From IMG/VR virus record IMGVR_UViG_3300046524_000034, positions 1-48,751 of that record: 48,751 nt of DNA, one strand, 5' to 3'. Below are positions 1 to 48,751 of the stretch, piece after piece. Under the pieces are notes generated by a model. It was given only the letters and a program-made list of their open reading frames with translations, made no database searches and had not been told where the DNA came from. The number at the start of each line of letters is the position of its first letter. Positions within the stretch are counted from its first letter, which is position 1. A program made the position numbers and the translations under genes. This stretch comes from a virus.

Positions 1-1051
1 GTTCTTGCCGGATGAACCGGCGCCAGGCGGACACAGCCGCCTTGCCGGAGAGGCCGCGCGTGACCTTGGGCCACAGCTCCTCGTACCGGCGATTCAGCTC
101 GTACGTAGCCGAGCCGTTGTACTGCTCGCGCGAGAACACAGGCTCGGCGTAGCAGTGGCAGTTGTCGTGGTACTTGTCGCCGTCCGCGTACTCCGCGGAG
201 TTCTGCGACCGGTAGACCGGACCACGAGAGATGAGCATCGCGCACCACCCGCAAGGGGTGCCGGTACGCGAGAGTCTGATGTAGCCGAGGGTTCGGCGGT
301 CACGCTGCATGTGGTTCCACACCGTCGAGCGGGCACCGTTCAGGGCGACACGCTCAGCGGCTGCGGCCTGTCGTGCGCCGGCCTGCTCGTGAGCTTCCCC
401 GCGGAGCTGGTCGACATCGTCAGCGCTCCTGGCGCCGTCGATCGCGTCGACCTTCTTCTGGAGGTTGCTGGAGCCCAGCGCTTCGAGGACCAGGCGCAGC
501 TCCTGCTCGGCCTCGCGCTCGATCCGTTCCTCGGCCTCCCGCAGGCCCGCGATCTCCTCGACCAGGATGCGGTCGAGCTCGTCTTCGCGGTCCTTGTCGG
601 GGTCGGCCTGGGCCTCCTCGTCAGCTTCCCCAGCTTGGCCGGTCGCGGCCGACGAGGAGGAGTCCGAGGTGCTGGCCGGCGCATCGCTTGATCGCCCCTC
701 CTGGGGGCTGTCAGCGCTTCCGGTCAGCTCGGCGAACTCGCGCCGAAGTACGTCGAGAGTGATGTACGTCGGCTCGGGGTGGTACGGATCGGCCACGGTC
801 GTCCCGGTCCGCAGTGCGCGGGCCAGGCGGTAGTAGGCACGGGCCAGGTCTCGGCTCTGTCGGCGCCGGCTCATCACCAGCGTGATGGCGCGGCGCAGCC
901 ACGATGTGGCGGTGGACGCCCGGCTCGTGACCGGGACGTCCTTCCACAGGTTCAGCGCGTCCGCGACGGTGCCGGCACCGATCTCGGTGAGCGCCGTCTG
1001 GAACGCGATGGCAGCGCGGTCAGCCTCAGCCGCTCGGGCTGGACTGCTCAC
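1..1051 (-). CDS. MuF-like minor head protein (3' end outside window)
   Basis: Probable minor head protein of the Mu F / SPP1 gp7 class, which associates with the portal during capsid assembly. The frame reads leftward from a GTG at 1051 and stays open to the window edge, about 350 codons, so the C-terminus is missing. The GTG overlaps the portal stop by four bases (GTGA), indicating translational coupling. Residues 1-110 are helical. Residues 115-160 are a Ser/Ala/Asp/Glu-rich linker, followed by a charged coiled-coil stretch. Cys267, Cys270, His295, Cys298 and Cys300 form the TPCGWC...DNCHC pattern typical of MuF C-terminal domains. Position directly after the portal supports the call. Whether a protease or toxin domain follows cannot be seen. 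Confidence 0.8.
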   Translation of the reverse strand, partial: MSSPARAAEADRAAIAFQTALTEIGAGTVADALNLWKDVPVTSRASTATSWLRRAITLVMSRRRQSRDLARAYYRLARALRTGTTVADPYHPEPTYITLDVLRREFAELTGSADSPQEGRSSDAPASTSDSSSSAATGQAGEADEEAQADPDKDREDELDRILVEEIAGLREAEERIEREAEQELRLVLEALGSSNLQKKVDAIDGARSADDVDQLRGEAHEQAGARQAAAAERVALNGARSTVWNHMQRDRRTLGYIRLSRTGTPCGWCAMLISRGPVYRSQNSAEYADGDKYHDNCHCYAEPVFSREQYNGSATYELNRRYEELWPKVTRGLSGKAAVSAWRRFIRQE

Positions 1052-2523: not shown

Positions 2524-2540
2524 GCCTCACCACCTTTCAG

Positions 2541-2553
2541 TCACACTTGCACA
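2541..2553 (-). promoter_or_regulatory. Stoperator-like 13-bp site
   Basis: Exact match to the window's dispersed consensus, TGTGCAAGTGTGA on the minus strand. It lies in the gap between terminase and portal genes and points in the direction of transcription. Confidence 0.6.
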
Positions 2554-5772: not shown

Positions 5773-6193
5773 GGAACGTTGAGCCCTCGGTGACGTCCTA
5801 CCTGAAGAGGTAGCTGCTCGAAGCTGTCAACCCGAGGGAGTCAGTAAGCAGTAAGTAGTAAGGAGCTTCGGTCAGCGAGGCCCGCCAGGGCCTCAAGCCT
5901 TCTACCTCGTCCTTCGTACTTACCCTTGTACTTACTGATACGGAGCTCGACCCACCTCAGTCCGGATGCTTTCGGCGTGACCGTGGTCACACTTACACAT
6001 AGCCTTCGAGGCTTCAGGCTGGGCCGCCTGGCGGCGGCCACAGAGCCTTGAGCGACGGCGAGGTAGTAGTCAGGGGCGAAGTGGCAGGGGCGCCCGAGGG
6101 CGCCACAGAGCAGAGCTGCCAGCGACCTGGGGGCGCTGCCGCGCCCCGGTAATCCAGTACCGGCTGTCAGTCCTACGGCTTACTGTTGGGCGC
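5773..6193. other. Intergenic control region, possible cos neighbourhood
   Basis: About 420 bases with no convincing gene. It holds a perfect CTACCT-GAAG-AGGTAG hairpin (5798-5813), a leftward TTGACA (5830-5825) that could be a -35 for the HNH-terminase transcript, and clustered AGTAAG/CTTACT elements near 5840-5860 and 5917-5935. A stoperator-like site lies at 5987-5999. In related phages cos lies close to the terminase and HNH genes, so it may be here. No cohesive-end sequence can be identified by eye. Confidence 0.4.
5987..5999 (-). promoter_or_regulatory. Stoperator-like 13-bp site
   Basis: TGTGTAAGTGTGA on the minus strand, one base from the best consensus, pointing toward the leftward packaging and head genes. 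Confidence 0.55.
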
Positions 6194-6379
6194 ATGGACA
6201 ACGACACTGACCTCCGCTTCGCGCTCCAGATGGCTGGTGCCGAGCTGGCCGAGACGCCCCCGCCCTCCGACTCTCCGCTCGGCCGGCTGCGTCTGTTCGC
6301 CGTGGCCAACCCTGGGGTGGAGCTGACCGCGGGGCACGTCCGTGAGGCCCTGGCCGGCACCCTGCGGCGCCCCTCCTGA
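6194..6379 (+). CDS. Small protein of unknown function
   Basis: Encodes 61 residues starting at an ATG six bases after a TTACTGTT box, so the mRNA may be leaderless or nearly so. The protein is acidic at the N-terminus (MDNDTDLRF), has a Pro/Ser turn (ETPPPSDSPLGRL) and an amphipathic C-terminal half (GVELTAGHVREALAGTL). Codon third positions are GC-rich, as in neighbouring real genes. No family is recognised. It is the first rightward gene after the control region and is separated from the early operon by about 1.1 kb of non-coding DNA. Confidence 0.5.
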   Translation: MDNDTDLRFALQMAGAELAETPPPSDSPLGRLRLFAVANPGVELTAGHVREALAGTLRRPS

Positions 6380-6609: not shown

Positions 6610-6639
6610 TTGACATCAGCGTGCAAGTGGCGCAAAGTT
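6610..6639 (+). promoter_or_regulatory. Candidate rightward promoter with embedded site
   Basis: A consensus TTGACA -35 (6610-6615) is followed 18 bases later by AAAGTT. The spacer carries the stoperator-like sequence at 6620, so repressor binding would block the promoter. Confidence 0.45.
6620..6632 (+). promoter_or_regulatory. Stoperator-like 13-bp site
   Basis: CGTGCAAGTGGCG lies between the -35 and -10 boxes of the candidate promoter at 6610. Confidence 0.45.
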
Positions 6640-7414: not shown

Positions 7415-7440
7415 TCAACCCGCCCAACCGGGTGGGTTGA
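7415..7440 (+). terminator. Strong hairpin upstream of first early gene
   Basis: TCAACCCGCCC and GGGTGGGTTGA form an 11-pair stem (one G-U) around AACC, 47 bases before the ATG at 7487. There is no U-tract, so it may be an attenuator or mRNA-stabilising hairpin rather than a classical terminator. Confidence 0.5.
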
Positions 7441-7454
7441 CAGCACACAGTGAG

Positions 7455-7467
7455 TGTGCAAGTGTAG
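7455..7467 (+). promoter_or_regulatory. Stoperator-like 13-bp site
   Basis: TGTGCAAGTGTAG just upstream of the ribosome site of the first early gene, pointing with transcription. Confidence 0.55.
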
Positions 7468-7486: not shown

Positions 7487-7873
7487 ATGGAAACCTGCAC
7501 GTACGAGCTCGACCACAGCGCCATCGCCGCAACGCACTACTACCGGGCCTGCGACGGTGACCGGGTCAACCTCTGCTTCGGCTGTGCGAGCCGGTTCGGG
7601 TACCCCAACTACCTGACCGAGTACCCCAAGCCGTGGCGCAAGGAGTACGGCTACCTGATCAACGCCTTCGACGGCTCCGGCCTGGGCGACCCGGTCTCGG
7701 ACGTCTGGCCCTTCGAGGAGATCCACGCCGAGGAGTGGCTGGCCGTCCTCGGATGCCAGTCCAAGTACCTGCTCGCCGATGCGGCATGGGAGCCCTACCG
7801 GGCCCACCAGTCCATCGGGACCCTGACGTACGAGGCCACCAGGGTCACTGTCCTCCCACTTGTGCAAGTGTGA
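7487..7873 (+). CDS. Early protein of unknown function, Cys-rich N-terminus
   Basis: Encodes 128 residues starting at ATG 7487 after GAGACGGAGAG. The N-terminal third carries Cys4, Cys19, Cys27 and Cys30 (YRACDGDRVNLCFGCASRFG), which may bind a metal. The rest is rich in aromatic residues. A GTG at 7454 in frame would add residues but lies inside the operator site, so the ATG is preferred. The stop TGA is the last triplet of a stoperator-like site. This is the first gene of the early operon, ahead of ribozyme 1. No family is recognised. Confidence 0.75.
   Translation: METCTYELDHSAIAATHYYRACDGDRVNLCFGCASRFGYPNYLTEYPKPWRKEYGYLINAFDGSGLGDPVSDVWPFEEIHAEEWLAVLGCQSKYLLADAAWEPYRAHQSIGTLTYEATRVTVLPLVQV
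7861..7873 (+). promoter_or_regulatory. Stoperator-like 13-bp site containing a stop codon
   Basis: Exact consensus TGTGCAAGTGTGA. Its final TGA is the stop codon of the preceding gene. Confidence 0.6.
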
Positions 7874-7901
7874 CGAGTGTGAGAGTGTAGCTACATCGCA
7901 A

Positions 7902-8880: not shown

Positions 8881-8893
8881 TGTGCAACCTGCG
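8881..8893 (+). promoter_or_regulatory. Stoperator-like 13-bp site (variant)
   Basis: TGTGCAACCTGCG, directly after the stop codon and upstream of the TGTGATACTGT box. Confidence 0.45.
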
Positions 8894-8897
8894 CAAC

Positions 8898-8908
8898 TGT
8901 GATACTGT
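8898..8908 (+). promoter_or_regulatory. TGTGATACTGT promoter box
   Basis: Exact copy of the 11-base box (extended -10 GATACT) found at the main early promoter. It would restart transcription between the GNAT-like gene and ribozyme 3. Confidence 0.55.
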
Positions 8909-8920
8909 CACAACAACAAC

Positions 8921-11834: not shown

Positions 11835-11847
11835 TGTGCAAGCTGCG
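11835..11847 (+). promoter_or_regulatory. Stoperator-like 13-bp site
   Basis: TGTGCAAGCTGCG, six bases after the stop codon and directly upstream of the promoter box at 11852, the same arrangement as at 8881. Confidence 0.5.
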
Positions 11848-11851
11848 CACG

Positions 11852-11862
11852 TGTGATACTGT
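11852..11862 (+). promoter_or_regulatory. TGTGATACTGT promoter box
   Basis: Exact copy of the 11-base extended -10 element. It precedes ribozyme 8 by 11 bases. Confidence 0.55.
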
Positions 11863-11873
11863 GACCACATCAA

Positions 11874-14547: not shown

Positions 14548-15116
14548 CCGACCTGATCGTGGGACTCAGCGGATACGCGAGGTCCGGCAAGAACACGGCG
14601 GCTGACGCCCTGATCCAGCGCGGCTGGAGGCAGGCGGGCTACGCCGACAAGCTGAAGGAGTTCCTGTACGCAGTGAACCCCTTGATCCCTGGCCACTTCG
14701 GGGCCGGCAACCTGCGCCTGCGACAGCTCGTCGACTCGGCCGGCTGGGACTACGCCAAGACCACGTACCCCGAGGTCCGGTCCCTGCTCCAGCGCACGGG
14801 CACGGAGGCTGGCCGGCGGGTGCTCGGCGATGACGTGTGGGTCGAGGCCCTGTACGCCGACCACCAGGACGCGGCCGGCCTGGTCGTGACCGACGTCCGC
14901 TTCCCGAACGAGGCCGAGGCCGTGGTCAAGCGGGGCGGCGTGATGATCCGGGTCGAGAGGCCCGGCGTGGGCCCGACCAAGGACAAGTACGGACGAGCCC
15001 ACGTCAGCGAGACCGCGCTGGATGCCTGGCCCTTCGACCACGTGCTGGTCAACGACGGGTCGGTGGACAACCTGCACGCCAAACTTCGAGGCGTCGCTGA
15101 GCTTGTGCAAGTGTGA
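14544..15116 (+). CDS. Deoxynucleoside monophosphate kinase
   Basis: Encodes 190 residues from GTG 14544. A P-loop, GLSGYARSGKNTAADAL, lies at about residues 7-23. The TDVRFPNEAE motif (about 115-124) and the ending DHVLVNDGSVDNL are hallmarks of phage dNMP kinases related to T4 gp1 and the AAA-like deoxynucleotide kinases. It phosphorylates dNMPs to dNDPs for phage DNA synthesis, complementing ThyX, dCMP deaminase and ribonucleotide reductase encoded elsewhere here. The stop TGA is the end of a stoperator-like site. Confidence 0.88.
   Translation: MTDLIVGLSGYARSGKNTAADALIQRGWRQAGYADKLKEFLYAVNPLIPGHFGAGNLRLRQLVDSAGWDYAKTTYPEVRSLLQRTGTEAGRRVLGDDVWVEALYADHQDAAGLVVTDVRFPNEAEAVVKRGGVMIRVERPGVGPTKDKYGRAHVSETALDAWPFDHVLVNDGSVDNLHAKLRGVAELVQV
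15104..15116 (+). promoter_or_regulatory. Stoperator-like 13-bp site containing a stop codon
   Basis: Exact consensus TGTGCAAGTGTGA. The last TGA terminates the dNMP kinase, as at 7861-7873. Confidence 0.6.
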
Positions 15117-15119
15117 CGG

Positions 15120-15130
15120 TGTGATACTGT
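15120..15130 (+). promoter_or_regulatory. TGTGATACTGT promoter box
   Basis: Exact copy of the repeated extended -10 box, four bases after the operator site. Its GTG (15129) doubles as the apparent start of the next gene. Confidence 0.5.
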
Positions 15131-15329
15131 GACACTCACAAGGCCAAGCGAGCTCGACGAACTGCCCGAGGGCACGACGATCGAGATCCTGGACAGACGG
15201 GGCAGCCTCCGCACCAAGCGAGACGGCCACTGGCGAGACGCCAGCAAGGCACCCGAGTCCACATGGAACGTCTACGTGTACGTCAACGCCCGACGCTGGG
15301 GAGCGAGGGTCATCGAGAAAGGACAGTGA
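15129..15329 (+). CDS. Small early protein of unknown function
   Basis: Encodes 66 residues if begun at GTG 15129. That codon lies inside the TGTGATACTGT box, so a transcript made from that box could not include it. Translation would then depend on read-through from upstream, or use an unseen start. The sequence (ELDELPEGTTIEILDRRGSL, then NVYVYVNARRWGARVIEKGQ) reads like a small beta-barrel. No family is recognised. Confidence 0.55.
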   Translation: MTLTRPSELDELPEGTTIEILDRRGSLRTKRDGHWRDASKAPESTWNVYVYVNARRWGARVIEKGQ

Positions 15330-16118: not shown

Positions 16119-16637
16119 GTGAACGGATGGGACTGGGTCGCGGAGGGCCAGCGCATCGCAGAGGAGACGAGGCGGGCCGGCGAGGTGGACATCGACGCGA
16201 TCAAGGCGCAGTCGATCGTCTTCGAGGAGCCGGCCGACCACCTGAAGGCGGCCGACATCAGCGCAGACGAGGCACCGCCGGCACCCCCTGTCGGGGGACT
16301 GGCCGGAGACCTGGCCGAACTGGTTCGGGAGGTCGAGATCTGCCGGGCCGGGCACTGTGATGCCGCGTACCGACAGAACAGTCAGGGTGGCGAGGCCCGC
16401 AACGTGGTCGGCCAGATCGCGAAGGCCGCGGGCGTGACGCTGTCCTCCGCCTTCGTCCGGCCCCTCGGTGGTGACGTCTGGAGCCCGGCGAACATGGCCC
16501 GCGTGCTCAAGGGCGTGCAGGATCTCGTCGCCGAGAACCAGTCGCTCCGTGATGAGCACGCCGCTCGTGACCAGAAGGCAACCGGTACCGCCAAGGCCCT
16601 GCGTGAGGCCCTGGCTCACTTCGAGGAGGGTGTGTAA
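16119..16637 (+). CDS. Early protein of unknown function
   Basis: Encodes 172 residues from GTG 16119 behind GAGAGGAGATCACACA. An upstream in-frame ATG at 16095 would place that ribosome site inside the coding region, so GTG is preferred. Alpha-helical N-terminus, a Pro-rich linker (EAPPAPPVGG), then a conserved-looking segment CRAGHCDAAYRQNSQGGEAR and a final coiled coil (LVAENQSLRDEHAARDQKAT). Two Cys and a His in CRAGHC may bind metal. The stop lies in a stoperator-like site. Confidence 0.7.
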   Translation: MNGWDWVAEGQRIAEETRRAGEVDIDAIKAQSIVFEEPADHLKAADISADEAPPAPPVGGLAGDLAELVREVEICRAGHCDAAYRQNSQGGEARNVVGQIAKAAGVTLSSAFVRPLGGDVWSPANMARVLKGVQDLVAENQSLRDEHAARDQKATGTAKALREALAHFEEGV

Positions 16638-16643
16638 GTGTCG
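16631..16643 (+). promoter_or_regulatory. Stoperator-like site spanning a stop/start junction
   Basis: TGTGTAAGTGTCG contains both the TAA stop of the preceding gene and the GTG start of the next. Confidence 0.55.
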
Positions 16644-16949
16644 CTTCCCATCGGACCGCTTGAGCCGGTCACCCACGATGACGTCCTCATCGTCTACGGG
16701 TTCCACCAGGCCCGCCTCTACCCCGAGTTCGACCGCAACAACGTCTACACCCTCCACGGAGTCGCCGCCTTCGGCCGGCTGCGAGGCAGGCGCCCGCGAA
16801 GGATCTTCCACACCGGCCTCGGGCTGAGTCGGGAGGCCGGCCGTCTCCGCGCTGAACTCACCCGCATGGAAGGGCTGTACGGCACCAAGATCCACCACGT
16901 CAACGAGCTCCACGCCTACGACGAGCCGGCGGTGCCCAGTGAAGCGTGA
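16638..16949 (+). CDS. Early protein of unknown function
   Basis: Encodes 103 residues from GTG 16638, abutting the upstream stop. Hydrophobic start VTHDDVLIVYGFHQARLYPE, a very basic middle (GRLRGRRPRRIFHTGLG) and a helical C-terminus (RLRAELTRMEGLYGTKIHHV). No family is recognised. The next gene starts 11 bases before its end. Confidence 0.65.
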   Translation: MSLPIGPLEPVTHDDVLIVYGFHQARLYPEFDRNNVYTLHGVAAFGRLRGRRPRRIFHTGLGLSREAGRLRAELTRMEGLYGTKIHHVNELHAYDEPAVPSEA

Positions 16950-19598: not shown

Positions 19599-20828
19599 AT
19601 GTCGCTCCAGGAGAACGTACGCAGCGCCCGGCGGACCGAGGGATGGACTCAGGAACGCCTCGCCGAAGAGGCCGACCTCTCGGTGGGCACCATCCGCAAG
19701 GTCGAGCAAGGCGGGACCGTCGCAGTCGAGACGATCCACGCACTCGCCCGAGCCCTCGGCACCACGACCTCCAGCCTGTTCGCTTCCGAGGCGCCGGCCC
19801 CCGTCCATGAGGCGGAAGGCGACGGCCCCAAGCTGACCGAGCTGCGCCGGGCACTCATGCCACCGATCGGACTGACCACGGTGGTGACCGAACCCACCGA
19901 CGTCCGAGATCTGCACTCCATTCAGACAGACATCGCCGACTCGCACTCCCTGTACCACGCCGACCGCTACGACTCCGTCGCCAAGCGCCTGCCGGGCATC
20001 CTGCGCGCCAGCGAGACCGCGGTGGCCCTCAGCGATGGCGAGGCACGCAAGCAGGCGGTCGTCACCCGCGCGAGCGCCTTCCTCCTGGCCGGGAAGTACC
20101 TCACACAGGTACGGCGCTACGACATGGCCTACCACGCCCTCTCGCGGGCGATCATGGACGCTCGGGAGGCCGGCGACACCCAACTCGCCGCCACGGGCGT
20201 GGTCGGGATGGGCTGGCTGCTCCTGCGACAGGACCGCTTCGACGAGGCCGAGCAACTGGCCGCCACCACGGCCGAAGAGGTCGAGCCGCGCCTGTCCAGC
20301 GCTACGCCGGGCCAACTGGCCGTCTGGGGTGAGCTGAACCTCCGCGTAGCCTCCGCTGCCCGCCGCAACAACCGTCCGGACGTCGCCAAGGCGGCCCGGC
20401 GCATGGCTGCGACCGCAGCGAGCGCCCTGGATCGCGAGCACGTCGACTTCCGGCAGCACTGGACCACGTTCGGGCCGGTGACGGCCGAGACGAAGGTCAT
20501 CGAAGACCTCGCCCTCATCGGGGACGCTCGGGGAGTGCTCAGCCGGGCCGACGACGGGCCCGTGGGCCCCAAGGGGGTCAAGCGGCTCGGCCGGCCGAGT
20601 GCGAACAACTGGGGGAGGCACCGCCTCGACGTGGCGAAGGCCCACGTGCTCCTCGGCTCGCATCAGGACGCCATGGACGAGCTGACCGGCGTCCGGACGG
20701 AGTCCCCGGAGTGGTTGCGGCACCAGTCGATGGCCCGTCACGTCATGCGGGACATCCTGAGCCACCGCAAGCGCACGCTGACCCAGGACATGCGCGACAT
20801 GGCCGTGCATCTGGGCGTCAACGGGTAA
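19599..20828 (+). CDS. XRE-family regulator with TPR-like C-terminus
   Basis: Encodes 409 residues from ATG 19599 after GGGAGGTGATTCG. Residues 1-65 are an HTH_3/XRE DNA-binding domain: ENVRSARRTEGWTQERLAEE, LSVGTIRKVEQGGTVAVETI, then ALARALGTTTSSLF. The remaining residues are helical repeats (SASAF-type A-x3-Y-x-G motifs, for example AVVTRASAFLLAGKYLTQVR and AATGVVGMGWLLLRQDRFDE) of the tetratricopeptide kind found in chromosomal Streptomyces regulators. It is probably a host-derived regulator carried as cargo or involved in lysogeny. It is not the best candidate for the immunity repressor, which is at 33 kb. Confidence 0.85.
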   Translation: MSLQENVRSARRTEGWTQERLAEEADLSVGTIRKVEQGGTVAVETIHALARALGTTTSSLFASEAPAPVHEAEGDGPKLTELRRALMPPIGLTTVVTEPTDVRDLHSIQTDIADSHSLYHADRYDSVAKRLPGILRASETAVALSDGEARKQAVVTRASAFLLAGKYLTQVRRYDMAYHALSRAIMDAREAGDTQLAATGVVGMGWLLLRQDRFDEAEQLAATTAEEVEPRLSSATPGQLAVWGELNLRVASAARRNNRPDVAKAARRMAATAASALDREHVDFRQHWTTFGPVTAETKVIEDLALIGDARGVLSRADDGPVGPKGVKRLGRPSANNWGRHRLDVAKAHVLLGSHQDAMDELTGVRTESPEWLRHQSMARHVMRDILSHRKRTLTQDMRDMAVHLGVNG

Positions 20829-31157: not shown

Positions 31158-31170
31158 TGTGCAACCTTCG
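31158..31170 (+). promoter_or_regulatory. Weak stoperator-like site, opposite orientation
   Basis: TGTGCAACCTTCG on the plus strand, about 13 bases from the strong minus-strand site at 31183. The two form a loose inverted pair in the leader of the gene at 31114. Confidence 0.3.
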
Positions 31171-32782: not shown

Positions 32783-32922
32783 TTGTGATCCATCCTGCTT
32801 GAGACGTAAACGATCTGTCAAGCCCGTGATCACAAAATCTTCATGACTGGAACCTACGACTCCGCAACTGTCGGGAAGGTTGTATGGCCTACCCATGTTT
32901 TTTGCGAACGCGATGATCACAA
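32783..32922. promoter_or_regulatory. AT-richer control region with GTGATCAC sites
   Basis: The most AT-rich stretch of the window. TTGTGATC (32783-32790), GTGATCACAAAAT (32826-32838) and TGATCACAATTTG (32914-32926) share the TGATCACAA element, as expected for a second regulator's operator or for replication-initiator sites. No gene is present from 32747 to 33015. Confidence 0.45.
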
Positions 32923-32953
32923 TTTGAGTCAGTACCAAAAGGGACGTAGGCTC

Positions 32954-33010
32954 CTGAACGGCAGGAGACCCCCACAATGCCTGTGTGGGGGTCTCCCGCT
33001 TGCTGTTCAG
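32954..33010. terminator. Long inverted-repeat terminator
   Basis: GGAGACCCCCACA (32964-32976) pairs perfectly with TGTGGGGGTCTCC (32984-32996), flanked by outer CTGAAC/GTTCAG arms. It lies just after the repressor stop and insulates it from the leftward replication operon. Confidence 0.75.
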
Positions 33011-33015
33011 TTGTC

Positions 33016-33471
33016 CTACTTGTCCGCGTTCGGGCGCGGGGTGGTCTTCCGCTTGGGGCGGTGGATGAGATCGTCGTCACCCTCCTGCCGGGGCACGTAG
33101 AAGAAGCCCTCCTCCGTGTCCGGGTCGTAGTGGACGACCGCACCGCTCTCCTCCAGCATCTCGTGCCAGGACGCCAGCCGAGCCTTGTCTGTCTCGGTCA
33201 GCTCCTTGCCGGCGCGACTCCGAGCCTCGGCCCGCAGCATCGCGAGCGGGTAGGCCCAGCGGTGCTCCTCCTTCACGAACCAGGGGATCAGCTCGTCGTC
33301 CCGCACGATGCGGCGATCGAGGCCGCGGCGACGCCGGAAGTTCCCCCACATCGACGCAACCGTGTCGATGTTGTATTTGCGCTTGTACTCCTCGATCATC
33401 CACTGGTACGTCTTACCCTCCTCGAACCAGCGGATGACCTCCTGCTCATCCTGGATCTTGCGCTTGGCCAT
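33016..33471 (-). CDS. Immunity repressor, L5 gp71-like
   Basis: Encodes 151 residues from ATG 33471 with AGGGGGCTC before it; a GTG at 33516 would add 15 residues. An N-terminal helix-turn-helix-like part reads EQEVIRWFEEGKTYQWMIEE, then YNIDTVASMWGNFRRRRGLD. The C-terminal half TETDKARLASWHEMLEESGA, then GFFYVPRQEGDDDLIHRP, resembles mycobacteriophage L5/Bxb1 repressors (K-x-RLLSWWKML...GFRYVPR...DDDLLIR, from memory). Those bind asymmetric 13-base stoperators scattered through the genome. The window has about 27 such sites, one in front of this gene, consistent with autoregulation. Confidence 0.75.
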   Translation of the reverse strand: MAKRKIQDEQEVIRWFEEGKTYQWMIEEYKRKYNIDTVASMWGNFRRRRGLDRRIVRDDELIPWFVKEEHRWAYPLAMLRAEARSRAGKELTETDKARLASWHEMLEESGAVVHYDPDTEEGFFYVPRQEGDDDLIHRPKRKTTPRPNADK

Positions 33472-33531
33472 GAGCCCCCTGTCGTCGATGATCTTGAGCG
33501 TGGGAAACACTTCCACACTACTCGCGCAGAA

Positions 33532-33544
33532 GTCAACTTACACA
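33532..33544 (-). promoter_or_regulatory. Operator-like site between repressor and divergent gene
   Basis: TGTGTAAGTTGAC. Its TTGAC also forms a possible -35 for the repressor, and the site lies upstream of the divergent gene at 33592, so both could be controlled. Confidence 0.55.
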
Positions 33545-33591: not shown

Positions 33592-33930
33592 GTGAAGCTC
33601 GAAGTCACCGCCTGCGACATCGACAAGAAGTTCCCGGCGAAGACGTACACCATCACGGCGAGCGACGGACGCAGCATCTCCAAGGATCTGTGCGCCGAGC
33701 ACGCCGAGCCGTTCGAGGAGTGGCTGGAAGAGGCCGACGACCACGCGCCCGACATGGACGAGCACGCCCACCGGATCGTCGAGCAGCGCGAGCCCGCGCC
33801 CGAGCCGGCCCCCGAGGTACCGAAGAGGCGCACCGCGAAGACGGCGGCGCCCGCCAAGAAGACGACGCCCTCCAGGCGTCGCCCGAAGATCGTGAGCCTG
33901 GAGGAGATCGAAGCCTCCAAGAAGGGCTGA
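33592..33930 (+). CDS. Small protein divergent from repressor, Lsr2-like features
   Basis: Encodes 112 residues from GTG 33592. The N-terminal 50 residues (TACDIDKKFPAKTYTITASD, then GRSISKDLCAEHAEPFEEWL) recall the Lsr2 dimerisation domain or a small zinc-binding relative. The C-terminus is Ala/Lys/Arg/Pro-rich (KTAAPAKKTTPSRRRPK) and likely binds DNA. Placed divergently from the repressor with a shared operator, it could act as a Cro-like or nucleoid-associated regulator. The Lsr2 link is tentative. Confidence 0.6.
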   Translation: MKLEVTACDIDKKFPAKTYTITASDGRSISKDLCAEHAEPFEEWLEEADDHAPDMDEHAHRIVEQREPAPEPAPEVPKRRTAKTAAPAKKTTPSRRRPKIVSLEEIEASKKG

Positions 33931-33937
33931 GACAAGA

Positions 33938-33978
33938 AGAGAGCCCCCGCCGGCCGTGTGGCAGGCGGGGGCTTCTCT
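33938..33978. terminator. Bidirectional terminator hairpin
   Basis: AGAGAGCCCCCGCC (33938-33951) pairs with GGCGGGGGCTTCTCT (33964-33978). It separates the convergent gene at 33592-33930 from the leftward lysis cassette. Confidence 0.8.
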
Positions 33979-34190
33979 CATTCCTGGTCGGAGCTCTCGA
34001 CGAACCCGAACGCGGTCAGCGCCTGTATGACGAGCGCCACCTGCGGGTAGTCCGTGCCGAAGTACGTGGCCAGGGACAGAGCCACACCCACGAGGGCCGC
34101 GACGAGGCCGGCCTTCGACTTGTACCTGGTGGGCAGGGCCGCAGCGATACGCGCCACGCCCTTGCCCGTCACCTTCCTGTGCTTGCTCAC
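33978..34190 (-). CDS. Holin-like small membrane protein
   Basis: Encodes 70 residues from GTG 34190, overlapping the endolysin stop by four bases. A basic N-terminus (SKHRKVTGKGVARIAAALPT) precedes a hydrophobic stretch AGLVAALVGVALSLATYFG (about 29-47) and a second, shorter one (ALVIQALTAFGFV). It has a short acidic end. Size, topology and coupling to the endolysin fit a holin or antiholin. No family is named with certainty. Confidence 0.65.
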   Translation of the reverse strand: MSKHRKVTGKGVARIAAALPTRYKSKAGLVAALVGVALSLATYFGTDYPQVALVIQALTAFGFVESSDQE

Positions 34191-35050
34191 TTGATGCCCG
34201 CCTCCTTCTGGAGCTCCTTGAAGCCGGACTTGCCGATCGCCGGGTCGTACGAGACACCCGCGGTCTTCAGGTGCGGGTTCTTGTTGTGGAACCGGGCGAC
34301 CGCCTTCTGGGTCTCGGGGCCGTAGTAGGTGGTGTAGGCGCCGGGGATCGGGCCGTAGCCCGCCTTGACCAGGAAGTGCTGGAGATCCTTGACCTGGGCG
34401 TGCTTGGCGCCGGGCTTCACCGCGGAGTTCAGGGCCACGATCTTCGAGGCCGGCTTCGGGGCGGGCTTCGCGGGGGCGGGCTTGCTCGGGGCCGGCGCGG
34501 ACGGAGCAGGCTTGGGCTCCGCCTTCGGCGCCTCGTCCTTGAACTTCGGGTCGGCCGACTTGATGCCCTCGGCGAACTTCGGGTAGCCGTAGCCGTACAC
34601 GTAGGCGTCCCGGCGCACCCGCTTCTTCGCGTAGACACCGTCCCCCTCGGCGCTCCCGTTGACGTTGGTGTTGCCCTCGTACGTGTAGATGTAGGTGTCG
34701 TCGTAGTCGTAGACGATGCCCGTGTGGGTGCCGCCACCAGCGCCGAAGAAGACCTGCGCCCCGATGCCGGGGTACTCGCTGAAGCGGCCCTGGCGCTTGT
34801 ACCAGGCGACCGCGGTCTCGCAGCCGGCCGTCTTGGGGTAGAGCGCGGCGACGCCCGCCTCGGCCGCCACCCACGCCACGTACGCGGCGCACCACGGCCA
34901 GCCGTAGCCGTCCTGGTCGTAGCCGGGGATCTTGCCGAACCAGCGGTTGTACTTCGAGTCGTTGACCCAGTGGCCACCCGACTTCTTCTCCTGGGTACCG
35001 ACTTCGGCCTTCGCGACCGAGAGAACCTTTGCTACCTGTGACACTTTCAC
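34187..35050 (-). CDS. Endolysin: CHAP amidase/peptidase plus peptidoglycan-binding domain
   Basis: Cleaves host peptidoglycan. Encodes 287 residues from GTG 35050. The CHAP-type cysteine peptidase fold has GWPWCAAYVAW (catalytic Cys54) and GGGTHTGIVYDY (His109), as in Streptomyces phage lysins. A Pro/Ala/Lys linker (about 175-205) joins it to a C-terminal peptidoglycan-binding domain (AKHAQVKDLQHFLVKAGYGP, then YGPETQKAVARFHNKN). The gene is coupled to the holin-like gene. Confidence 0.92.
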   Translation of the reverse strand: MKVSQVAKVLSVAKAEVGTQEKKSGGHWVNDSKYNRWFGKIPGYDQDGYGWPWCAAYVAWVAAEAGVAALYPKTAGCETAVAWYKRQGRFSEYPGIGAQVFFGAGGGTHTGIVYDYDDTYIYTYEGNTNVNGSAEGDGVYAKKRVRRDAYVYGYGYPKFAEGIKSADPKFKDEAPKAEPKPAPSAPAPSKPAPAKPAPKPASKIVALNSAVKPGAKHAQVKDLQHFLVKAGYGPIPGAYTTYYGPETQKAVARFHNKNPHLKTAGVSYDPAIGKSGFKELQKEAGIK

Positions 35051-35062
35051 AACCTCCTGTTG

Positions 35063-47845: not shown

Positions 47846-48186
47846 CAGCTCGGCCTCTCGCGCACGTCGATGGACCAGTGCCTGGTCCTGCGCTCGCCGT
47901 GGTGGTAGGCCGGCGGGGTCACGACGTCCCAGACCTTGCCGAGCATCTCGACGCGCGACCACAGCTCAACGCCTTCGAGGTTGGCGTCCACGACCATGCG
48001 CGTGATGTTGATCTGCTGCTGACCGGGAACCTCGGCTCGGGCCGAGCGCTGCGGGATCAGCGCGCACCGGACGCGATGCGGGCCGTCTGCGTCGGCGACC
48101 AGAACTTCGTTGCCGCGGTTGTCGACGTGGTAGCGGGCCTTCCAGATGGTGGCCTCGACTCCGCGCCTGCGCTGCATCGAGCTCAC
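47845..48186 (-). CDS. Head-closure protein
   Basis: Encodes 113 residues from GTG 48186 (overlapping the preceding stop). A beta-barrel-like sequence: VEATIWKARYHVDNRGNEVL, then HRVRCALIPQRSARAEVPGQ and EMLGKVWDVVTPPAYHHGER. It is of the size and position of SPP1 gp16/HK97 head-closure proteins that cap the connector. The assignment is from order. Confidence 0.75.
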   Translation of the reverse strand: MSSMQRRRGVEATIWKARYHVDNRGNEVLVADADGPHRVRCALIPQRSARAEVPGQQQINITRMVVDANLEGVELWSRVEMLGKVWDVVTPPAYHHGERRTRHWSIDVRERPS

Positions 48187-48659
48187 CAGGGCTCCACCTC
48201 ATCCGAGAAGAGGGGGAACGGCTTGGAGTCCGGGGTCGGCTGTGCGACCGGGACCAGGCCGGCCACCACGGGCCGGCGTACCGAGTTCCAGGCGGAGACC
48301 TGCGCCGAGTACAGGCCGGGCTTGCGTCCGCCGATCTCGGCCAGGAGCTTCTGCTCCTCCGCCGTGAAGTGGACGGTGCCGGCCTCCTCGCCCTGGCTGT
48401 CGTTCCAGCCGAGCGTCTCGTCGCCCGCTCGGGACTGCGTGTAGCCCGAGGGGTTGTCCATGTACCGCTTGCACGCCTTCAGGACCAGCGTCCGTATCAG
48501 GCGAGGGGCGGAGGATGCGTCCGGCCAGTCGCGGCCGGCGTGGAAGCTGGCCAGGTCGGAGGCGTCCTCCAGGGCTGAGGTCGCGATGCGCTCCTCGTCA
48601 GCGTCGAGCGTCCAGTCGAGGCGGGCCTTCAGCTCATCGAGTGTGGCGAAGTTCGCCAA
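48183..48659 (-). CDS. Head-tail connector (adaptor) protein
   Basis: Encodes 158 residues. TTG 48659 is used because AAGGAGAACCATC lies before it and the frame begins MANFATLDELKARLDWTLDA. A helical N-terminal half (ALEDASDLASFHAGRDWPDA, LIRTLVLKACKRYMDNPSGY) matches adaptor proteins (HK97 gp6/SPP1 gp15 class) that bind the portal. The C-terminus is Pro-rich. It follows what appears to be the end of the capsid gene. Confidence 0.8.
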   Translation of the reverse strand: MANFATLDELKARLDWTLDADEERIATSALEDASDLASFHAGRDWPDASSAPRLIRTLVLKACKRYMDNPSGYTQSRAGDETLGWNDSQGEEAGTVHFTAEEQKLLAEIGGRKPGLYSAQVSAWNSVRRPVVAGLVPVAQPTPDSKPFPLFSDEVEPW

Positions 48660-48695
48660 GATGGTTCTCCTTCACTCACGGGGAGGGGCGGGATG

Positions 48696-48708
48696 CGCAA
48701 CTTGCACA
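48696..48708 (-). promoter_or_regulatory. Stoperator-like 13-bp site
   Basis: TGTGCAAGTTGCG in the gap between the apparent capsid gene end and the connector gene; identical to the site at 6856. Confidence 0.55.
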
Positions 48709-48731
48709 CCCCGCCCCACTCAGCCGATGGA

Positions 48732-48751
48732 TCAGACGCCAGCGCCGTCAG
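48732..48751 (-). CDS. Probable 3' end of major capsid protein gene
   Basis: Only the last six codons are visible: ...DGAGV then TGA at 48734-48732. The neighbouring connector gene and the head-gene order make the major capsid protein the natural candidate. The call rests on position alone because almost none of the protein is in the window. Confidence 0.35.

Follow-up and report, generated by a model that had tools for sequence, protein, structure and literature searches.

The sequence analyzed here (hereinafter, the window) is the whole of the IMG/VR virus record IMGVR_UViG_3300046524_000034, 48,751 nucleotides in length, and is collinear with the genomes of the phages Caelum and R4. At the locus of interest, a repressor gene and a divergent small gene are each followed by a hairpin, and a predicted promoter, overlapped by two separate sites, precedes the repressor gene (scores in bits come from the 16-bp matrix described below):

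33016..33471, minus strand: repressor gene of the R4 gp29 type, 151 aa (homolog searches and alignment of starts)
33592..33930, plus strand: divergent small gene, homolog of R4 gp28, phrog_4061, with a beta-beta-alpha N-terminus and a basic tail
33507..33536, minus strand: predicted repressor promoter TTGACT-N18-AAGTGT (from sequence and alignment; spacer of 17 or 18 in relatives)
33504..33517, minus strand: operator-like site TGTGGAAGTGTTTC over the second hexamer of this promoter, 15.3 bits
33531..33544, minus strand: weaker site TGTGTAAGTTGACT over the first hexamer, with 1 core mismatch, below the matrix threshold
32940..33015, minus strand: hairpin after the repressor gene, predicted terminator (-40.0 kcal/mol, z -4.9; position conserved in 18 aligned sequences)
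33931..33985, plus strand: hairpin after the divergent gene, predicted terminator (-35.3 kcal/mol, z -4.6)

The minus-strand open reading frame extends over 33016-33516, and its in-frame GTG at 33516 was rejected as the start because the relatives start at the position of the ATG at 33471, which is conserved in an alignment of 45 distinct sequences and in a second one of 41. The sequence-only reading placed the repressor gene alone between two terminators; hairpins indeed close the interval on both sides, but the divergent small gene shares it. A simple terminator scan did not report the hairpin at 33931-33985 and reported the other one partly, on the plus strand. The same reading noted a site at the promoter of the repressor gene, and such a site is present, with TGTGGAAGTGTTTC lying over the second hexamer.

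In the product of the divergent small gene, C8, Y19 and C34 are invariant over 44 sequences. The structural model of this protein has a beta-beta-alpha N-terminus and a basic tail predicted with low confidence; a sequence search of the PDB gave no match, nor did Pfam at the cut-off. The best Foldseek match of the model is the Lsr2 dimerization domain (4e1p; E 0.31, probability 0.89), which is not significant, although the order of the beta-beta-alpha elements and the DNA-binding-like basic tail are alike in the two. The protein is perhaps Lsr2-like, and a role as a nucleoid-type helper of silencing would be a guess.

Family and fold of the repressor

Of 50,697 phage records searched with tblastn, 283 contain a homolog of the repressor (174 Streptomyces, 107 Mycobacterium, 1 Gordonia and 1 Fromanvirus), the closest being that of Issmi (93.4% identity), and none were found among 72,556 plasmid records. 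Among the matches listed, the homologs are annotated as immunity or transcriptional repressors, with the exception of the phiCAM protein ('hypothetical protein'), and the Mycobacterium phage repressors are matched directly with E values of about 1e-2 to 1e-5. The repressor is 82% identical to R4 gp29 and 89% identical to the Caelum homolog. It matches phrog_3929 (E 9.3e-88) and, more distantly, phrog_357 (E 1.9e-9), PHROG families that are both labeled 'transcriptional repressor'. Both the family profile (phrog_3929) and the gene neighborhood (synteny with Caelum and R4) are those of the R4 gp29 type. The gene is confirmed as an R4-type repressor, which is mostly an ordinary result: the kind is known, and its relation to L5 is already annotated, given that the GenBank record of R4 describes gp29 as 'similar to L5 gp71'. 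R4 gp29 and its relatives (Arquatrovirinae, including Caelum, Issmi and the phiScoe phages) have the same gene neighbors, and R4 and Caelum have the same site core; compared with the R4 group, the window shows no difference in kind and represents a further genome of that group.

The ends of the window (1-1051 and 48183-48751) fall between the genes for the MuF-like and the head-tail adaptor proteins. Nothing in the window matches the scaffold and major capsid genes of Caelum, and a search for end repeats was negative. Near 5800-6200, the ends of the phage genome itself are fused within the window; the contig thus looks like a joined or circular form from which about 1.7 kb are missing. The sole TTA codon in the mapped genes lies in a small gene at 5798-5989; in Streptomyces, this codon is rare and regulatory.

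The sequence-only reading related the protein to L5 gp71 and pointed to a C-terminal pattern of L5/Bxb1 repressors. The pattern is real: RLASWHEML..GFFYVPRQEGDDDLI of the repressor aligns with RLLSWWKML..GFRYVPRDISDDDLL of the immunity repressor 7r6r, which is the match in the PDB (phmmer E 8.7e-7; profile E 8.7e-9), and the match to phrog_357 likewise bears out the relationship. According to PMC9283540, the 7r6r repressor is 98% identical to that of L5. Structure prediction, which the same reading had proposed as a check, points in the same direction. Among 95 Foldseek matches in the PDB, 7r6r is the only one at E <= 0.001 (E 7.9e-6, probability 1.00) for the AlphaFold2 model of the repressor (built with 41 sequences; mean pLDDT 84.9, pTM 0.63), with a TM-score of 0.65 by query and an rmsd of 3.3. 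The VIA comparison aligns 136 residues (2-145 of the model) with 7r6r (Z 10.3, rmsd 3.7); its second-best row (Z 6.3) covers the helix-turn-helix (HTH) part alone, and matches of the first 55 residues to unrelated HTH proteins (Z <= 6.3) were set aside. Because the model aligns with 7r6r over nearly the whole chain, both domains appear to be common to the two proteins, beyond the C-terminal pattern. The predicted fold thus combines an N-terminal HTH and a Stoperator domain in a single chain, and confirms, at the level of sequence and model, that the homology to the L5 clade covers both putative DNA-binding domains.

The residues reported as essential in the solved repressor are R45, W50, D104 and R108 (PMC9283540). 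In the phmmer alignment with 7r6r, W50 and R108 are conserved, R45 and D104 are both replaced by T, and K81 is replaced by Y; K81 and R45 count among the L5-clade residues reported as essential or intermediate. Judging from the alignment, the replaced residues may fit a different recognition sequence. The L5 clade is described as having many oriented intergenic sites and an operator at the repressor's own promoter (PMC6550527). The L5 gp71 and TipsytheTRex repressors (7r6r, 7tz1) thus resemble the window in the two-domain fold, in the many oriented intergenic sites and in the operator at the repressor's own promoter, as far as the predicted sites are concerned. Besides the replaced residues, the differences are the divergent small gene that adjoins the repressor here and the site itself: the cluster A site is an asymmetric 13-mer (GGTGGTTGTCAAG in Che12, PMC5559632), whereas the site in the window, TGTGYAAGTGTSRC, is longer and partly palindromic. 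With just two occurrences of TGTCAAG, the window does not show the asymmetric 13-bp consensus of cluster A.

Predicted operators and promoters

Comparison of k-mer counts with Markov expectation singled out one motif, to which the short words most strongly over-represented in the window belong; for example, TGTGCAAGTG is present in 12 copies compared to 0.06 expected. The core TGTGYAAGTG has 15 exact copies in the window, and its letter-reversed control has 0. A first matrix was discarded, as it drifted to a palindrome and counted both strands, and was replaced by a 16-bp matrix that converged on TGTGYAAGTGTSRC. With this matrix, which was trained on the window itself, 42 sites reach at least 13 bits in the window, compared to 0.67 on average among 30 order-3 Markov sequences. 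The reversed window contains 7, which partly echo true sites, so that the Markov figure may be too kind. The sites outside the repressor promoter are the following:

2540..2553, minus: predicted stoperator, 23.0 bits
5986..5999, minus: predicted stoperator, 20.6 bits
6620..6633, plus: predicted operator, in the spacer of predicted promoter 6610..6638, 17.9 bits
6700..6713, minus: predicted operator, inverted, 23.8 bits
6855..6868, minus: predicted operator, inverted, 20.8 bits
6881..6894, plus: predicted site, TGTGATACTGT variant, 20.6 bits
7153..7166, plus: predicted site, 17.9 bits
7455..7468, plus: predicted operator, over the second hexamer of predicted promoter 7437..7465, 23.0 bits
7861..7874, plus: predicted stoperator, 21.3 bits
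7878..7891, plus: predicted stoperator, 17.0 bits
7981..7994, plus: predicted stoperator, 16.1 bits
8881..8894, plus: predicted stoperator, 16.2 bits
8898..8911, plus: predicted stoperator, TGTGATACTGT variant, 19.4 bits
9903..9916, plus: predicted stoperator, 21.3 bits
9984..9997, plus: predicted stoperator, inside mapped gene, 18.4 bits
11835..11848, plus: predicted stoperator, 17.7 bits
11852..11865, plus: predicted stoperator, TGTGATACTGT variant, 18.9 bits
11938..11951, plus: predicted stoperator, 16.0 bits
13260..13273, plus: predicted stoperator, 20.3 bits
15104..15117, plus: predicted stoperator, 21.3 bits
15120..15133, plus: predicted stoperator, TGTGATACTGT variant, 21.0 bits
15766..15779, plus: predicted stoperator, inside mapped gene, 22.4 bits
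16631..16644, plus: predicted stoperator, across TAA-GTG gene junction, 23.7 bits
22718..22731, minus: weak site, inside mapped gene, 14.2 bits
23686..23699, minus: predicted stoperator, 21.3 bits
25707..25720, minus: predicted stoperator, inside mapped gene, 23.9 bits
27865..27878, minus: weak site, inside mapped gene, 14.4 bits
28574..28587, minus: predicted stoperator, 20.1 bits
28629..28642, minus: predicted stoperator, TGTGATACTGT variant, 20.6 bits
29992..30005, minus: predicted stoperator, 22.5 bits
30795..30808, minus: predicted stoperator, inside mapped gene, 19.1 bits
31158..31171, plus: inverted site, with a similar inverted site in R4 and Caelum, 18.1 bits
31182..31195, minus: predicted stoperator, 21.2 bits
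31330..31343, minus: predicted stoperator, inside mapped gene, 18.5 bits
32551..32564, plus: inverted weak site, inside mapped gene, 15.6 bits
32767..32780, plus: inverted operator just downstream of predicted promoter 32792..32821, 23.7 bits; equally placed and oriented in R4 and Caelum
35038..35051, minus: predicted stoperator, 24.7 bits
35377..35390, minus: predicted stoperator, inside mapped gene, 23.0 bits
37077..37090, minus: predicted stoperator, 17.1 bits
46104..46117, minus: predicted stoperator, 20.1 bits
48695..48708, minus: predicted stoperator, 21.9 bits

The sites were compared with a map of 82 gene intervals, which was transferred by BLAST from Caelum and R4 and from which genes unshared with these phages are absent. 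Of the 42 sites, 33 lie at least partly outside genes, where random placement would give 12% (p 6e-23), and 37 are oriented with the nearest gene (p 2e-7). When the window's matrix was applied to the two relatives with the gene maps of their depositors, R4 yielded 29 sites, of which 19 lie at least partly outside genes and 27 are oriented with the nearest gene, and Caelum yielded 36 (28 and 33, respectively). Many copies of one short site, mostly intergenic and mostly in one orientation, are hallmarks of a repressor-stoperator system and are found here. Inverted sites recur as well: R4 and Caelum, too, have the site after the repressor and that near 31158 in inverted orientation. Four tandem pairs consist of sites 16-17 bp apart (8881-8911, 11835-11865, 15104-15133 and 7861-7891), the second site being a TGTGATACTGT variant in three of them. 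The site at 16631-16644 straddles a gene junction: one mapped gene stops at its TAA and the following one starts at its GTG. That R4-like phages have stoperator sites of their own is already known, and Smith et al. 2013 is reportedly the source for those of R4. Repressor-stoperator control in R4, and at least eight sites per phiScoe phage, are described in PMC10276819.

Besides the promoter of the repressor gene, three early promoters are predicted from the sequence:

32792..32821, minus strand: predicted early promoter after the repressor, TTGACA-N18-CAGGAT (TTGACA kept in 18 of 18 aligned sequences)
6610..6638, plus strand: predicted early promoter of the opposite arm, TTGACA-N17-CAAAGT
7437..7465, plus strand: predicted early promoter, TTGACA-N17-AAGTGT

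Predicted sites overlap the putative promoters that would serve the repressor, the early genes following it and the opposite early arm. Of the five copies of TTGACA in the window, three have a predicted site no more than about 50 bp away. In 18 aligned sequences, which were chosen from one operator class, the inverted site after the repressor is kept throughout, and the layout of the repressor promoter, with a site over the second hexamer, is common to most. A general promoter scan that covered two stretches reported nothing sigma-70-like there; it missed the predicted promoters because its -10 rule is stricter, and all promoters given here are accordingly predictions.

Some of the sites, above all TGTGATACTGT, might be promoter elements (extended -10 boxes) as opposed to operators: TGTGATACTGT reads TG-N-GATACT, its copies at 8898, 11852 and 15120 follow another site by 16-17 bp, and several operators overlap predicted promoter hexamers. 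Nevertheless, the TGTGATACTGT copies share the outer letters TGTG...TSRC with the other sites, and the scan detected no sigma-70-like promoter in the stretches that it covered, so we consider this reading a possible but rather doubtful one; moreover, one site can serve as both operator and promoter element.

The genome-wide set of operators also bears on the origin of the repressor, for which the sequence-only reading left a choice between mosaic acquisition and an ancient shared system. A recent acquisition from a cluster A-like phage would agree with the sequence-level similarity to cluster A, which is clear in the C-terminal part only. However, the homolog is present in 174 Streptomyces phage records with at least 66% identity among the matches listed, the gene lies between the lysis genes and the early arm at a constant position in the relatives whose maps were read, and the operators occur throughout the genome, a distribution not expected from a recent exchange of the repressor. 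A recent transfer therefore appears extremely improbable, and the evidence, including the R4 system in print (PMC10276819), favors the old shared system over the mosaic.

We propose that the gene product is very probably the repressor responsible for lysogeny and immunity in a temperate R4-like Streptomyces phage, an L5-type protein that would act through about forty sites, both by blocking initiation and by stopping RNA polymerase. Extrapolating from the solved relative, the N-terminal HTH and the C-terminal Stoperator domain would read two neighboring turns on one side of the DNA, and the repressor would bind about forty sites of 14-15 bp of the form TGTGYAAGTGTSRC. When bound at its own promoter and at those predicted for the early genes, it would block initiation and keep its own level steady; at the remaining sites, which are mostly intergenic and co-oriented with transcription, it would halt passing RNA polymerase. 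Such stoperator arrest of stray transcription is described for cluster A phages (PMC6550527, PMC9283540) and is ascribed to R4 in PMC10276819. For the window, the outcome is a named repressor together with a list of sites and a set of predicted promoters, in a group of Streptomyces phages that is well used; the points added to what was known are the operator classes and the solitary host copies considered below.

Operator classes among R4-like phages

Counts of TGTGYAAGTG over 22 genomes range from 10 to 21 copies in 11 genomes and from 0 to 3 in ten, with six copies in G017. A de novo search for over-represented words in 15 genomes (12 G-numbered ones in pieces, together with the window, R4 and Caelum) identified TGTGCAACCT in G008, G009, G011, G014 and G015 (class B) and TGTGACAGTG in G018, G019 and G020 (class C); G017 is mixed and fits no operator class cleanly. 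Thus, R4-like phages have at least three operator classes, namely TGTGYAAGTG (A), TGTGYAACCT (B) and TGTGACAGTG (C), which match clades of the repressor; the TGTG half of the site is constant in all classes and the other half varies. R4 and Caelum are assigned to class A, Lannister to class B and Verse to class C. For most of the distant prophages, for each of which a single locus of 10-20 kb was searched for operator k-mers, no clear motif emerged.

In a tree of 61 repressor sequences, for which the bootstrap had not settled, class B and class C form one clade each (support 100/99 and 99/99). Class A differs without overlap from B and C at alignment columns 52 and 94 in sets of 29, 9 and 5 sequences, which were chosen by site counts, leaving out loci with few sites; because B and C are one clade each, this separation rests on about two events. 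Column 94 corresponds to D104 of the solved repressor. Residue 73 (A or L in HRWxYP) was considered as a class determinant and rejected, as L135 has L and L174 has I at this position and both have TGTGYAAGT sites.

The Stoperator domain is reported to vary with immunity type (PMC9283540), and the correspondence between repressor and operator classes parallels this published link. By this sequence-based prediction, the operator classes would define separate immunity groups, that is, they would foretell which R4-like phages are immune to each other's lysogens.

Solitary repressor genes in host chromosomes

One scan of host genome contigs detected 23 loci with a repressor homolog, of which 8 belong to R4-like prophages, as judged by searches with 83 Caelum proteins. 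The other 15 (including L169, L170, L171, L172, L173, L179, L183, L184, L186, L187 and L189) lack an R4-like structural or replication gene nearby, although L177, L180 and L188 have short flanks and L191 matches in the C-terminal part only. At most, these loci have the small gene beside the repressor, save for L169, with an additional gene beyond the small gene, and L173, with a ribonucleotide reductase-like stretch. The terminase of the window is absent from 14 of the 15 solitary genomes and has a 30% match in the fifteenth, compared with its detection in 4 of 4 prophage genomes (E below 1e-240); DnaB is absent from 10 of the 11 solitary genomes tested and is 30% identical in the other. Among 295 Streptomyces genomes drawn, the repressor is present in 10, with an R4-like terminase in 7 of these and not in the other 3, which were already among the 15, one of them being the center of the draw. 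The occurrence of related repressor genes alone in bacterial chromosomes without a prophage is a less expected result than the identity of the phage gene.

The small gene adjoins the repressor in 7 of the 15 loci (L169, L173, L177, L179, L183, L189 and, by eye, L180). Upstream of the repressor, the S. mangrovisoli locus L169 contains TTGACT and TGTGGAAGTGTCGC, the S. avidinii locus L170 contains TGTGCAAGTGTCGC, and L171 contains TTGACG and TGTGTAAATGTAGC; in the other solitary loci, among the 14 compared, the upstream operator is weaker or absent. These sites bear on the question whether the predicted operators belong to the repressor or to the XRE-type protein encoded at 19599-20828 of the window, a second, larger DNA-binding regulator (phrog_5823) that could account for partly palindromic sites as expected for a dimeric regulator. 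The solitary repressors, with no XRE gene nearby, retain a TGTGNAAGTG-like site in front, clearly so in L169 and L170; furthermore, operator class tracks the repressor clades, B and C being one clade each, and the site core is common to R4 and the window although the XRE proteins are 35% identical and the repressors 82%. Assignment of the sites to the XRE-type protein thus appears very unlikely, and we consider them to be sites of the repressor. The XRE gene adjoins the integrase gene, and its product, which is 86% identical to that of Caelum and 35% identical to that of R4, is far more variable than the repressor.

In the repressor tree, the 13 solitary rows require 9 label changes, at least 3 of which are forced by well-supported branches, although shuffled labels gave a value as low in 14 of 500 cases; this scattered placement implies that solitary genes arose more than once. 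Pairwise dN/dS values, obtained by division for five solitary-versus-phage or related pairs, are 0.09-0.18, which says little because the phage side shares the branch. The solitary repressors could be stand-alone immunity genes or relics. The points for retention are the intact frame in most of them, the operator kept in some and the repeated origin. We tentatively suggest, while considering it hardly the likelier outcome, that R4-type repressors have been repeatedly kept in prophage-free Actinobacteria, often with the small gene and an operator, as single chromosomal genes for specific anti-phage immunity, the range of which would depend on the operator class of the infecting phage. If true, this would be a simple form of resistance, with one gene and no prophage.

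Several individual loci are worth describing. In L173, a serine recombinase gene lies beside the repressor, and the locus looks like a decayed prophage. In two Streptomyces loci, L173 (8267-10489) and L183 (9655-10411), the small gene and the repressor seemingly occupy the same chromosomal site, with a GreA-like gene on one side and an ABC transporter on the other, both identified by eye. L191 (9926-10207) encodes a homolog of the C-terminal (Stoperator) part only, with no apparent HTH, and in L187 (10001-13835), the solitary repressor homolog directly precedes a type I restriction hsdM-like gene.
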